A stretch of DNA of 64,000 bases from Bacillota bacterium (GTDB lineage: Bacteria > Bacillota > Dethiobacteria > Dethiobacterales > Dethiobacteraceae): contig JAAZIQ010000053.1 in assembly GCA_012800795.1 (NCBI GenBank), forward strand, positions 1 through 64,000. Direction: 5' to 3'. A program made the position numbers and the translations under genes. Under the pieces are notes generated by a model. The model was not told the DNA's origin. It saw nothing but the letters and a program-made list of their open reading frames with translations, and did not search any database. Of this stretch, positions 36,264 through 40,658 are shown piece after piece; positions within the stretch are counted from its first letter, which is position 1; every line of letters starts with the position of its first letter.

Positions 36264-36860
36264 TCACTTTCGCTTCGGAGGAAGGGTGTTGCGAAAAAAA
36301 ACCTTCCCGGGCAAAACGGCTTCAATTTTTGTTAAAAATCTGGCAAACAATAAAATTATATCGGCAGCACGACTCAGAGCCAGCCTTTTCCCCAGCGCTT
36401 TACCACCGACTGTAATGGCTGAGACAATGCCGGTGGCAACAATACTCACTGTGGGATTTTGGGCAATAAAATTGCTACCGAATAAGCGCAAAACCAGCAA
36501 AGCGTTTAAAACGCCGCTGACAATACCGGCAATATCACCTACCACATCGTTGCAAAAATTGGAAAAGCGATCTGCATTGCGGACAAGGTACAGAGCTTCC
36601 CGCGCGCCGGGAATTTTTTTGGCGGCTTTAGCCAAAAGGGGGACTTCATCTGCAGCGGCAGCGGCAATACCAATCATATCAAATAGTATTCCTGTTATCA
36701 CAATAAATAAAAGCACAGCTAGTGCCACTGCAAAAGATTGGATACTGTTAAAAATGATCTGTGAAACCAAACTAACTATCACAGAAAGAATAAATGTCCA
36801 GATCGTAATAGTAACAACCCAGCGCAGCGAACTTTCATTCTTATCTGTATTTTGCCCCAT
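36264..36860 (-). CDS. oapA: OLE RNA-associated membrane protein OapA
   Basis: 198-aa integral membrane protein with about four helices: roughly 12-36 and 43-66, then two at about 105-130 and 135-160, with a conserved FDMIGIAAAAADE segment after helix 2 and basic ends. In Bacillus halodurans and many anaerobic extremophiles this protein binds OLE RNA and holds it at the membrane; the complex matters for tolerance to cold, alcohols and Mg2+. It is the gene immediately after the OLE RNA, between OLE and dxs, which is the classical arrangement. ATG 36860 has GAGGTG six bases before it. Confidence 0.85.
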   Translation of the reverse strand: MGQNTDKNESSLRWVVTITIWTFILSVIVSLVSQIIFNSIQSFAVALAVLLFIVITGILFDMIGIAAAAADEVPLLAKAAKKIPGAREALYLVRNADRFSNFCNDVVGDIAGIVSGVLNALLVLRLFGSNFIAQNPTVSIVATGIVSAITVGGKALGKRLALSRAADIILLFARFLTKIEAVLPGKVFFRNTLPPKRK

Positions 36861-36909
36861 TATTTGCACCTCATGGTCAAAAAATAAAAAATAAATTTAT
36901 ATAAACTAC

Positions 36910-36937: not shown

Positions 36938-37542
36938 ACCTTTCAGACCTATCGGTCAGAGCTTATAACATTATATAACAATAAGCCGTAGGTGAGCAAC
37001 CCATCAGGTAAACGTTACGGCTTAGGTCCAGCAGGTTTTCCCAATTAGTCACCAGGTCGTCGCCGTCCCTGGCAGTTCCCAATTAAGACTAATTTCATTG
37101 TGTTGCCAACAATGAGGCTGGATTACCACTAAGTCCATACTTTAATCCCTGACGAGTCTCCGTTTGGAACAGTCTAGGAGTTTTCCTCAATAACGTGGGA
37201 TCATTTTCTAGCCTCTTTTGCAGTGACGGTTTCATCCAACGCCTCCACCGCCACCACTCAAGGCAGGCTACACTGTACACAGCGCGTACCGCATACAGGT
37301 TCTTCCCAAGCCATAGTCATTTACCCACTACGGTAATTCACCACGCACTTGAGTCTCCACGGGACTAGGGTCAACGCCTGCATGCCTTTGCAGATCGCCC
37401 CAATCCCTTAACTCCCAGCACCAACCCCCGACTGGGCGTCGGCAGCCAGCACCAGGAACTTCATCGATGTGCCCTTTACGGATTTTTAGGCCCGTCTTCG
37501 AAAATGAACACGCTAACTAGAATACTGCGCCACCTACGGAGT
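36910..37542 (-). ncRNA. ole: OLE RNA (ornate large extremophilic RNA)
   Basis: No protein-coding frame explains this 633-base stretch, which is bounded by a sigma-A-like promoter and a strong terminator. Length (about 610 nt is typical), position directly before oapA in a run with dxs, tlyA, recN, xseAB and ispA, and a highly structured GC-richer sequence with several long-range complementary segments (for example AAGCCGTA/TACGGCTT near 36983-37024) all match OLE RNA. OLE forms a membrane ribonucleoprotein with OapA and the L7Ae-like OapB. A covariance search is needed to confirm; context and length make this likely. Confidence 0.85.
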
Positions 37543-37548
37543 ATTTAT

Positions 37549-37577
37549 ATTGTAACATATCTGAAAATTTCTCACAA
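37549..37577 (-). promoter_or_regulatory. Sigma-A-like promoter of OLE RNA
   Basis: Minus strand: TTGTGA, a 17-base spacer, then TACAAT. Four of six and five of six bases match sigma-A consensus. A start about seven bases beyond the -10 gives an OLE transcript of about 633 nt. Confidence 0.65.
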
Positions 37578-37824
37578 ATTCTTTTGCGAACTGCATTAGC
37601 CTTATTTCCTGCAATTTAGCACTTCCCTGCCCTTTAGCAGGCAAGCGGTGAATAACTCTCACCCCCCTTACAGTTAGCGAAGTTATAGTCAGTTAAGAAA
37701 CAATTTTATTCTTAGTTTATTAGTTACACAAAAGAATAATGAAAAAAATCTTTACTTGTTTTATTGCGTCATTGCTATAACAAATATCATACTATGTAGC
37801 AGAATGTCAGGGGGGTGAAAGTAT
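37578..37824. other. Divergent intergenic region
   Basis: About 250 bases between the OLE promoter and the first gene of the small-protein cluster. It contains a small hairpin (CCTGC/GCAGG near 37629-37645) and A-T-rich sequence. CATACTAT near 37789-37796, about 30 bases before the first start codon, resembles a sigma-E or sigma-K -10 element, but no convincing -35 stands at the right distance. No gene is seen here. Confidence 0.35.
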
Positions 37825-38004
37825 ATGTCTCGACAATTTAACGGCGATTTGTTTTCCGCCAGCGTAATTAACCAAAAAGCTGTTAACCAAAACACACAAC
37901 AAATTCTTGTGCTGGTTGCGGCACAAGTTGCTAACTTAATTGAGGCCCAATTTGGCTTTGCTGAAAATGATGATAGTGATACCATTGAAGGCTTTACTGT
38001 GTAG
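37825..38004 (+). CDS. Small module protein A of the 37.8-40.6 kb cluster
   Basis: 59-aa protein, first gene of the plus-strand cluster, with GGGGGGTG seven bases before its ATG. Residues 12-45 form the shared module: an Asn/Gln-rich stretch (VINQKAVNQNTQQ) that runs into a hydrophobic helix-like stretch (ILVLVAAQVANLIE) and ends AQFGF; an acidic tail follows. The module is 31 of 34 identical to that of the next gene while the DNA differs at many third codon positions, so the protein is under selection. I do not recognise the family. The hydrophobic stretch is too polar for a clear membrane span, so self-assembly is more likely than insertion; that is inference. Confidence 0.8.
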   Translation: MSRQFNGDLFSASVINQKAVNQNTQQILVLVAAQVANLIEAQFGFAENDDSDTIEGFTV

Positions 38005-38029
38005 TTAAACTGATGAAAGGGGTCCGCCA

Positions 38030-38251
38030 ATGAAAAAATTTGCCTACCAATATGCAACAGGTACAATGCCGGCAAATATAAAAAGGAGATTTGGCAATGC
38101 CGATATTTTTACTGCAAGTGTTATTAATCAAAAAGCTGTAAATCAAAACGCACAACAAATTTTAGTACTTGTTGCCGCCCAAGTAATTAGCCTCATTGAA
38201 GCACAATTTGGTTTTGCTACTAATGAGGACCAGGATGAAATTAATGAATAA
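38030..38251 (+). CDS. Small module protein B
   Basis: 73-aa protein 25 bases after protein A, with AAAGGGG before its ATG. The N-terminal 27 residues are unique and basic-aromatic (starting MKKFAYQYATGTMPANIKRR). Residues 29-62 are the shared module (VINQKAVNQNAQQ followed by ILVLVAAQVISLIE and AQFGF), and the tail is acidic. Against protein A only three of 34 module residues change. Function unknown; the different N-termini of the three module proteins suggest a common assembly core with different surface ends. Confidence 0.8.
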   Translation: MKKFAYQYATGTMPANIKRRFGNADIFTASVINQKAVNQNAQQILVLVAAQVISLIEAQFGFATNEDQDEINE

Positions 38252-38276
38252 TCCTATGTAGAAAGGAGTAGAAACC

Positions 38277-38486
38277 TTGAAAATAGGCTTTACAAGAAAT
38301 GGTTTAACACTCGATTCCAAGCCTTTTAACCCTCTCAATCTTTCCGTTAAAGGGCATGGTATTGAAACAAAGGAATTACCCAAAATTGATGCTTTTGAAA
38401 TACTAGAGAAACTTGCCAGTGCAAGGGCGGAAGGTGCCACCCGGTTTGATCAAGTTAAAGCATTGCAGTCAATTTTGCCCAAATAA
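38277..38486 (+). CDS. Hypothetical protein of the small-gene cluster
   Basis: 69-aa soluble protein starting at TTG 38277, eight bases behind AAAGGAG and 25 bases after gene B. The N-terminal half (GFTRNGLTLDSKPFNPLNLSV) looks beta-rich; the C-terminal half (DAFEILEKLASARAEG onward) is a probable amphipathic helix ending ILPK. It does not contain the shared module. Not recognised. It is followed by an 82-base gap with only a weak hairpin before the third module gene. Confidence 0.75.
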   Translation: MKIGFTRNGLTLDSKPFNPLNLSVKGHGIETKELPKIDAFEILEKLASARAEGATRFDQVKALQSILPK

Positions 38487-38568
38487 GCCAGCACCTGCTA
38501 CACTGGAGTTTTTTCATTAATTATATCGCTTATAAAAAGCATAATTACCACACAGTAGGAGGGTTAAA

Positions 38569-38724
38569 ATGCCAGACGTATTATTAGCCAGTGTTGTGAA
38601 TCAGAAAGTTGTTAACCAAAACACACAGCAAATCTTAGTTCTGATCGCCGCACAAATTGTTAATGTTTTAGAAGCCCAGTTCGGTTTTTCCACTAACTTG
38701 GATAATGATACCATCAACTCATAG
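38569..38724 (+). CDS. Small module protein C
   Basis: 51-aa protein with AGGAGG six bases before ATG. It is almost nothing but the shared module: after MPDVLL comes VVNQKVVNQNTQQ, ILVLIAAQIVNVLE and AQFGF (residues 7-40), then a short acidic tail. 27 of 34 module residues are identical to protein A and the differences are conservative. This minimal copy defines the domain limits. Function unknown. A strong ten-pair RNA hairpin follows the stop. Confidence 0.8.
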   Translation: MPDVLLASVVNQKVVNQNTQQILVLIAAQIVNVLEAQFGFSTNLDNDTINS

Positions 38725-38736
38725 AACATTAGCCGG

Positions 38737-38763
38737 GGCCCCTTTTTACAGCTAAAAGGGGCC
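38737..38763 (+). promoter_or_regulatory. RNA hairpin inside the small-gene cluster
   Basis: GGCCCCTTTT (38737-38746) and AAAAGGGGCC (38754-38763) pair perfectly over ten bases with a seven-base loop. No T run follows, so it is more likely a 3' stabiliser, processing site or partial attenuator separating the module genes from the second half of the cluster. Confidence 0.6.
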
Positions 38764-38832
38764 TACTAATGAACAACTGTCATTCTTTTCACATATTATA
38801 GTTTAGCAAATTGCCTGCGAAGGAGGATACTT

Positions 38833-38997
38833 ATGCCTACTGAAAATATGCTGCCTGCACGTCAGGAACAGAATGATGTCTATATGCAGGCTGAAATAAT
38901 TGATCAACTAAATACGAACCAACAATCTAATATGACTCTGTCTACTGGTTCGGTTATTACACAAACAGGTTCGCTTGTAAAAATAAATGTATCTTAA
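38833..38997 (+). CDS. Hypothetical Gln/Asn-rich small protein
   Basis: 54-aa protein with AGGAGG five bases before its ATG. It is polar and rich in Gln, Asn, Thr and Ser; the stretch IIDQLNTNQQSNMTLS weakly echoes the NQxxVNQNxQQ start of the module proteins but lacks the hydrophobic helix. The C-terminal part (TGSVITQTGSLVKINVS) looks like a beta hairpin. Not recognised. It begins about 70 bases beyond the strong hairpin. Confidence 0.65.
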   Translation: MPTENMLPARQEQNDVYMQAEIIDQLNTNQQSNMTLSTGSVITQTGSLVKINVS

Positions 38998-39017
38998 AAG
39001 AAAGGAGTTATATAAAT

Positions 39018-39305
39018 TTGTGCAGTAATCCCTGGATCACAATAAAAGCACGTCGTAAGAAAAAAATACCGGAAATTCGGCTGGATAAAATCGGTCAGGT
39101 GTATATAGACGGCCAACTGTATGATCCGGATGATGATAAATACCGCAATCTATCCATCAATGTAGAAACACACAGCAAGCTAAACACAGGTGAAGAGACA
39201 CAAAAAATGCTGGAGTTGCAAAAAGAAGCAGTTAAAGGTAAGACCTATACTGTGTCCGAGAGTAAAGACAAAGATAAACATGAGTCAACCACAATTAAGT
39301 TTTAA
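39018..39305 (+). CDS. Hypothetical charged protein of the small-gene cluster
   Basis: 95-aa protein starting at TTG 39018 with AAAGGAG ten bases upstream. Highly charged: a basic N-terminus (KARRKKK), then a beta-like segment (EIRLDKIGQVYIDGQLYDPDDD) and a Lys/Glu-rich C-terminus (SESKDKDKHESTTIKF). Two cysteine-poor halves, no signal peptide or membrane span. Not recognised. It stands 20 bases after the preceding gene, so it is part of the same transcript. Confidence 0.7.
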   Translation: MCSNPWITIKARRKKKIPEIRLDKIGQVYIDGQLYDPDDDKYRNLSINVETHSKLNTGEETQKMLELQKEAVKGKTYTVSESKDKDKHESTTIKF

Positions 39306-39317
39306 GGGTGGCTTGAG

Positions 39318-39497
39318 ATGACAGAACGAAAATTTATTACTGATGAACTGGAAGTCTGCCTAAATTTTCAATGCCCACTTCCACCGGATTTATTGACACA
39401 ACTATATTTACTGCGCATAGATGAAACATTAAACAATGAAGAGAAGGCCGCAAAATTACAGGATATTTTAAGGAATGAAAACTATGCAGAAAGGTAA
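39318..39497 (+). CDS. Hypothetical small acidic protein
   Basis: 59-aa protein with GGGTGG before its ATG, overlapping the next start by 14 bases. The second half (IDETLNNEEKAAKLQDILRNEN) is a predicted charged helix; two cysteines lie at residues 14 and 19. Not recognised. Tight overlap with the following gene argues for translational coupling and that the frame is real, although at this length it is not proven. Confidence 0.55.
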   Translation: MTERKFITDELEVCLNFQCPLPPDLLTQLYLLRIDETLNNEEKAAKLQDILRNENYAER

Positions 39498-39768
39498 ATT
39501 AATTTTCCTGGGCAATTTATCAAATGAGGCTAACCTTTGTGTTACTCAAAACACTGAATTGTATCAGTTAAATGTAGCTGTCATCATTGGTGTTAATCAG
39601 CTCCGCGAAAGTGTTTTTTCCCGTACGAAGATACCGCTTGCTATTGAAATTGGAGAAAAAGGAGAAATAGAAATTCAAGGCCTGGATGGCCTAACTGTTA
39701 ACGATGAAAACATTCGCATATACAGTGACCGTAAAATGACGCAAAGCGAAACGAATAATACGGGTTAG
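39484..39768 (+). CDS. Small beta-rich protein, paralogue 1
   Basis: 94-aa protein. I start at ATG 39484, nine bases after AAGGA; an ATG nine bases earlier has no room for a ribosome site. The segment FLGNLSNEANLCVTQNTELYQLN then alternating hydrophobic strands and the acidic IEIGEKGEIEIQGLDG recur in altered form in the next gene (NSANQANLANTKDIKARQVN ... ISIDEHGTLWVNEQ), so the two look paralogous. No signal peptide or membrane segment. Not recognised. Confidence 0.7.
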   Translation: MQKGKLIFLGNLSNEANLCVTQNTELYQLNVAVIIGVNQLRESVFSRTKIPLAIEIGEKGEIEIQGLDGLTVNDENIRIYSDRKMTQSETNNTG

Positions 39769-39782
39769 AAAAGGAGTCGAAC

Positions 39783-40058
39783 ATGATGGAAGACGAAAAC
39801 AGTGTAGTAAAATCATATAATTTTCTCATTAATTCTGCCAACCAGGCTAATTTAGCCAATACAAAAGATATAAAAGCCAGGCAAGTTAATTCTGTCTTTG
39901 TACTGATTACGCCGTACTACATAGACAGATTTAATCTGGCCGGGCTGGATTTAGATATTAGCATTGATGAGCATGGCACTTTGTGGGTTAATGAGCAATC
40001 TTTCGAAGCAATTGAAATTGCTAGAGGAGTTAAGATCATTGGCATCATCCAAAGATAA
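39783..40058 (+). CDS. Small beta-rich protein, paralogue 2
   Basis: 91-aa protein with AAAGGAG six bases before its ATG pair. N-terminal helix-like NFLINSANQANLANTKD is followed by strand-rich FVLITPYYIDRFNLAGLDLDISIDEHGTLWV. Aligns with the preceding protein over about 60 residues with low but patterned identity (NxANL, Q-N, IxIxExG). It overlaps the zinc-ribbon gene by 20 bases. Not recognised; a role together with its paralogue as a heteromeric pair is inference. Confidence 0.7.
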   Translation: MMEDENSVVKSYNFLINSANQANLANTKDIKARQVNSVFVLITPYYIDRFNLAGLDLDISIDEHGTLWVNEQSFEAIEIARGVKIIGIIQR

Positions 40059-40422
40059 GAAAAAACCAGCAACTTGTATTCAATGTGGTGAAGCAGGCCT
40101 TTATATTATCCCTACAGAAAAAGATGTTTATATAGAATGCAAGGGCGGACACGCTTGGCGAGAACAATACATTGACCAGGGGGGAACTTACCCCCGTCCC
40201 AAAACAATTGTTAAACGCCTAGAAGATATGTTCAGCCCGCCGGAAAAAGAACTTTATCTCCGCATCAGCGCAGAACTGGAGAGTAACAGCGCTTATTATA
40301 AAGAAGCTGATACTTGGGAAAAAATAAATCGTTTATGTGAGCAGTGTAATGCTAATGAACAAGAAATTTATACTATTTTTAAAATTATTACCCTTTATCA
40401 TAAGGCCAAGGGAGGATTGTAA
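40039..40422 (+). CDS. Small zinc-ribbon protein
   Basis: 127-aa protein with start at TTG 40039, nine bases behind GAGGAG. Residues 13-38 form a possible zinc site (C13, C16, C34, H38) within an N-terminal ribbon; the remaining 85 residues are helical and charged (DMFSPPEKELYLRISAELE and the C-terminal NEQEIYTIFKIITLYHK). The longer frame starting at 39964 is rejected because it lacks a ribosome site. Such a protein could act as an adaptor or regulator of the cluster; this is inference. Not recognised. Confidence 0.75.
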   Translation: MASSKDKKKPATCIQCGEAGLYIIPTEKDVYIECKGGHAWREQYIDQGGTYPRPKTIVKRLEDMFSPPEKELYLRISAELESNSAYYKEADTWEKINRLCEQCNANEQEIYTIFKIITLYHKAKGGL

Positions 40423-40426
40423 GCAA

Positions 40427-40627
40427 ATGAGCCGCAATACAGAGCAAGTCGCAACGCCTACCGCATCGGAAGAAGAAAATAAAGTTTTTCAAAATACAGT
40501 AAAAATTAAGGGTAATACTAAAAACATTGAACAGACAAATAAACAAAAGTCTGCAGAAAATAAAACTACAGAACAAAAAGTCGGTAATCTGGAAAGACTG
40601 TTTAATATTTATCAAAAAAGGAAGTAA
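40427..40627 (+). CDS. Hypothetical polar protein, last gene of the small-gene cluster
   Basis: 66-aa protein, ATG 40427 with AAGGGAGG before it and four bases after the zinc-ribbon stop. Very hydrophilic and Lys/Glu/Thr/Asn-rich (NTVKIKGNTKNIEQTNKQ...), probably disordered, with a short C-terminal helix (NLERLFNIYQKRK). Its stop codon lies in the ascending arm of the cluster terminator. Not recognised. Confidence 0.65.
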   Translation: MSRNTEQVATPTASEEENKVFQNTVKIKGNTKNIEQTNKQKSAENKTTEQKVGNLERLFNIYQKRK

Positions 40628-40658
40628 CAGACCGGTTCTGTCACTTCCTTTTTTTTGC
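40620..40658. terminator. Bidirectional terminator between the small-gene cluster and ispA
   Basis: GGAAGTAACAGA and TCTGTCACTTCC pair (with a G-T pair) around CCGGT and are followed on the plus strand by eight or more T. The cluster ends here; on the minus strand it sits just after ispA, where the A-rich arm gives a weaker T run. Confidence 0.85.

Follow-up and report, generated by a model that had tools for sequence, protein, structure and literature searches.

A cluster of eleven small genes with a probable role in sporulation of Bacillota

The locus and its products

We analysed a 64,000-nucleotide stretch of a Bacillota genome, hereafter the window. Eleven genes occupy positions 37825-40627 of the plus strand, each encoding a protein of 51-127 residues. 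A first-pass annotation had delimited the same block but counted ten frames; the eleven are named M1, M2, p3, M4 and p5 to p11. Frames broken in related genomes would have spoken against the block. Compared with the nearest relative, all eleven are intact, with substitutions mainly at codon position 3. Values of dN/dS range from 0.01 to 0.21 across the eleven genes, indicating purifying selection. Hence, the frames are real genes rather than chance occurrences.

The cluster lies between ispA and the gene for OLE RNA, on the strand opposite to both. The OLE RNA gene (RF01071, 481 bits) is complete, occupies positions 36976-37549 of the minus strand beside the block and had not been reported in the earlier annotation. 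Between OLE and dxs, also on the minus strand, is a gene for an OapA-like membrane protein (36264-36869; weak CNNM match, Pfam E 6e-5). The block does split ispA from dxs, as originally described, with the OLE RNA and OapA-like genes intervening on the dxs side.

None of the eleven products matches a Pfam or NCBIfam family above cut-off, and neither collection identified an enzyme domain. The PHROGs gave no convincing match (best E 0.07). Sequence searches of the PDB with three of the families returned nothing credible. The products were originally described as unrecognised, and searches of Pfam, NCBIfam and PHROGs agree; nor do these searches place all of the products in one well-known system.

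M1 (59 aa, 37825-38004, dN/dS 0.02-0.06), M2 (73 aa, 38030-38251, dN/dS 0.14) and M4 (51 aa, 38569-38724, dN/dS 0.01) form one family of module proteins, as first proposed. They have 30 invariant positions in common; M2 differs in carrying an N-terminal extension. Fifteen residues are invariant across 26 sequences of the module family, and each locus encodes two to four near-identical subunits. AlphaFold2 predicts one helix in M4, spanning residues 2-38, with moderate confidence (pLDDT 76.5, pTM 0.41). Hydrophobicity reveals no significant amphipathic-helix periodicity in the module. Residues 43-49 of M4 form an acidic tail, N-x-D-x-D-x-I, in which Asp45 and Asp47 are invariant in the 26 sequences; this is a possible metal site. 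Homology of the module to p5 and p9, an idea raised by shared Asn/Gln motifs, was not supported on testing.

The remaining proteins include two paralogous pairs, where one further pair had been suspected. Profile comparison with hhalign relates p8 (94 aa, 39484-39768, dN/dS 0.10) to p9 (91 aa, 39783-40058, dN/dS 0.14) with a probability of 96.1% (E 3e-9), and p3 (69 aa, TTG start, 38277-38486, dN/dS 0.03) to p7 (59 aa, 39318-39497, dN/dS 0.08) with a probability of 94.5% (E 8e-8). In three genomes, the p9 profile also matches, more weakly, the stretch immediately before p9, at the place of p8. The p9 protein contains an NxxNQAN...QxN motif and a predicted beta region. Its structure model is poor (pLDDT 62.8), and a fold search with this model found no match below E 2. 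One conserved family each is represented by p5 (54 aa, 38833-38997, dN/dS 0.16), with the motif DQxNxNQQSNMxLSxxSxITQ, and p6 (95 aa, TTG start, 39018-39305, dN/dS 0.04).

The last two genes are p10 (127 aa, 40039-40422, dN/dS 0.12), which has a TTG start and overlaps p9, and p11 (66 aa, 40427-40627, dN/dS 0.21). A zinc-ribbon-like site, CxxC...CxxGH, is present in one half of p10 as noted earlier; the C-terminal half is conserved. However, three relatives (L024, L025 and L026) are without the zinc-ribbon-like half. Hence, this half is not part of the conserved core, and the earlier idea that it serves as an adaptor is weakened. In p11, a fast-evolving linker precedes a short conserved C-terminus, LExLFNIYQKRK. 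Profile comparison gave no support for a p3/p7 C-terminal motif in p11.

Promoter-like sites and transcription units

Two sites upstream of genes in the cluster resemble the -10 element of sigma K and sigma E promoters. These are CATACTATG at 37788-37796, ahead of M1, and CATATTATA at 38792-38800, ahead of p5. Both conform to CATANNNTR, and they are the only such matches on the plus strand between 37600 and 40660. Of 14 loci, 13 have the motif no more than 100 nt ahead of the first gene (L024 is the exception), against a mean of 1.3 and a maximum of 5 in 1000 shuffles; the loci include close relatives (G000, G001 and G007) and so are not 14 independent events. The extended form, AC-N14-18-CATANNNTR, precedes the first gene in 9 of the 14 loci (0.26 expected). 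The M1 promoter of the window itself lacks the -35 AC at the proper spacing. Ahead of p5, CATANNNTR is found in 6 of the 14 loci (0.86 expected). As a control, we inspected the regions upstream of 63 window ORFs of at least 150 residues; two contain CATANNNTR and none the extended form.

In Clostridioides difficile, sigma E and sigma K promoters have a similar -10 element and differ at -35, which is ATA for sigma E and AC for sigma K (PMC3789822). The promoter evidence favours sigma K, and sigma E is also compatible. A point against assignment to the mother cell is that CATACTA also resembles sigma G sites.

A strong hairpin (38727-38771, plus strand, -24 kcal/mol, z -4.85) follows the module genes and is a candidate terminator or attenuator. 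Stable hairpins are present in the gap between M4 and p5 in every locus examined. A second hairpin (40614-40654, -19 kcal/mol, z -5.19) is a terminator common to the block and the convergent ispA gene, confirming the strong terminator originally placed at the end of the block. The block had been described as a single operon. Its genes are indeed co-directional, but the hairpin and the promoter-like site at 38792, both between M4 and p5, indicate that it is probably two transcription units, M1-M2-p3-M4 and p5 to p11. The succession of module unit, hairpin and second promoter suggests that the module proteins may be made in excess of the rest.

Distribution and genomic setting

Some 14 further genomes have related clusters, mostly with the gene order conserved, in differing neighbourhoods. 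The carriers are four other members of the window's family, another genome of the same phylum (G181), Alkaliphilus peptidifermentans, A. pronyensis, three divergent genomes of the Alkaliphilus order, MAGs labelled Peptococcaceae, Halanaerobiaceae and Bacillota, and G735. Local order varies: L026 has an extra module copy, modules are grouped at the front in L067 and L068 and reordered in L070, and no module gene was detected after p3 in L025. In G571 (L085), only p9 and p10 lie near the match, with no module genes seen; this pair could be either a remnant or a minimal version. The block is rare. In the family, 5 of 20 members have it; the count for the class is 5 of 98 genomes, for a phylum sample 3 of 399 (the window's own genome counted) and for the Alkaliphilus order 5 or 6 of 247.

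Adjoining the cluster in four loci, and convergent with it, is a gene for a protein of 340-550 residues (L024 8501-10159, L026 5089-6612, L069 1596-2624 and L086 2243-3781). By visual comparison the four resemble one another; BNR repeats were matched in the L024 copy. Some neighbours in L024, L069 and L086 were considered as spore coat-like proteins (SPOCS/CsxC); Pfam and NCBIfam gave no confirmation for the proteins tested.

Comparison of ispA-dxs neighbourhoods, proposed as a check in the first-pass annotation, identified seven relatives in which ispA, OLE, oapA and dxs are contiguous. Six of these lack the cluster (G004, G006, G009, G010, G022 and G025). The seventh, G011, carries the cluster elsewhere, with cluster and OLE on different contigs. 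G007 (L115) has the cluster between ispA and dxs, and the OLE and oapA-like genes are missing at that site. Together, these arrangements indicate that the position of the cluster between ispA and dxs is derived, as had been suspected, and that the cluster has no fixed link to this position. The earlier suggestion of an insertion or lineage-specific accessory system is supported by the seven contiguous relatives and by the presence of the block in only a quarter of the 20 family members.

A functional tie to the adjacent OLE ribonucleoprotein would be a further reading of this position. OLE correlates with sporulation genes (PMC11332333), and the cluster adjoins OLE in G000 and G001. However, these are the only two linkages among the loci read, the arrangements in G011 and G007 separate the two elements, and the flanks of most other loci fetched contain no ispA or dxs. 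We regard such a tie as highly improbable.

A predicted role in the spore outer layers

All but one of the 14 carriers possess the spore-former gene spoIVA, and the one without it is an incomplete MAG (91% complete). In the Alkaliphilus order, spoIVA is found in 116 of 247 genomes and in all five that bear the module. Taken alone, this association is a modest link to sporulation. In G531 (L067), a distant relative, a manganese catalase gene is directly upstream of the cluster; catalases of this type are coat proteins controlled by sigma K in C. difficile (PMC3789822). The CATANNNTR promoters, the distribution among spore-formers and the manganese catalase neighbour together make it very probable that the cluster has a role in sporulation. 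Most spore-formers in the family are without the block. Hence, it is not required for sporulation.

Our preferred interpretation, which we consider reasonably probable, is a mother-cell cluster of two units, of sigma K type or possibly sigma E, with products that would become part of the spore coat or exosporium. Gene order kept in scattered spore-formers and mother-cell promoters make parts of the spore outer layers likely products. A structural role fits the small proteins, the paralogous subunits and the lack of recognised enzyme domains. Gene conservation, paralogy, the promoter motif and confinement to spore-formers are direct observations, whereas we infer the identity of the sigma factor and the location, assembly and individual roles of the proteins. 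Briefly, the cluster would be switched on in the mother cell as two co-directional units. The first, ending at the hairpin, would provide three near-identical module proteins and p3. The second, from p5 to p11, would supply the minor components. Together the proteins would build up on the spore as it develops, within the coat or exosporium; the module proteins would be its main repeating subunits, and the p3/p7 and p8/p9 pairs would act as matched minor ones. In this scheme p10 would be an accessory protein and p11 a disordered tether.

A self-assembling multi-subunit structure, as originally envisaged, is plausible. Its boldest form would be a new spore-surface nanostructure with no relation to any coat, exosporium or appendage family so far described. 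Here, module proteins some 51 residues long, overproduced from a separate unit, would self-assemble into a fibre or lattice, together with a tether and two matched pairs of minor subunits. We offer this only tentatively.

The main rival to assembly of a distinct structure is a role like that of gerPABCDEF in Bacillus, in which small non-enzymatic proteins, expressed from one mother-cell operon, let germinants pass through the coat. The gerP locus is a sigma K operon; its six products are non-enzymatic, relate to the coat and include paralogues (PMC2817736). The window cluster is alike in type of regulation, in the small size of its products, in its internal paralogy and, likely, in acting at the outer layers. 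However, it comprises eleven genes in two apparent units in Clostridia-like lineages, without detectable protein homology to gerP. No product matches the Pfam families GerPA/F, GerPB, GerPC, GerPD or GerPE, even at the looser limits of E 1 or E 10, and presence is patchy, most spore-forming relatives lacking the cluster. We consider a permeability role unlikely. Polymerisation of the 51-residue module proteins into filaments anchored by minor proteins, as a spore appendage, seems less probable again. In favour of such a fibre, the near-identical subunits, two to four at each locus, are encoded in their own unit ending in a hairpin, and spore-surface fibres exist in Clostridia (F-ENA; PMC11952670). 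As in F-ENA and S-ENA, an abundant repeating subunit may be exposed on the spore. Against this, there is no match to DUF4183 or DUF3992 or, in the PDB sequence searches with three families, to any solved fibre, and the module proteins are 51-73 residues long and predicted to be helical, not beta.

Many tiny genes for unrecognised products and a patchy distribution might also describe a bacteriocin, phage-derived or defence system. Searches of phage, plasmid and IMG/VR collections found no match to the cluster, the best PHROG hit is not convincing, no transporter or modification enzyme was recognised, and the promoters upstream are of spore type. A system outside sporulation is thus very unlikely. 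Besides gerP, close parallels to a mother-cell cluster for the outer layers are the sigma K coat operons of Clostridia, such as those of manganese catalase and C. difficile cotD and cotCB. They have the same type of promoter, and manganese catalase adjoins the G531 cluster; in contrast, the eleven products are unrelated to known Cot proteins by Pfam and NCBIfam. The novelty would lie in unrelated protein families that perform a familiar type of task.

The outer layers of the spore are less well described in Clostridia than in Bacillus. The cluster contributes a small syntenic group of unnamed protein families, whose time and place of action are strongly predicted. Since named Alkaliphilus strains carry the cluster, the claim can be tested directly. 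Its occurrence in distant lineages, yet in only a minority of genomes, suggests that the cluster is a lineage-variable module of the spore surface.
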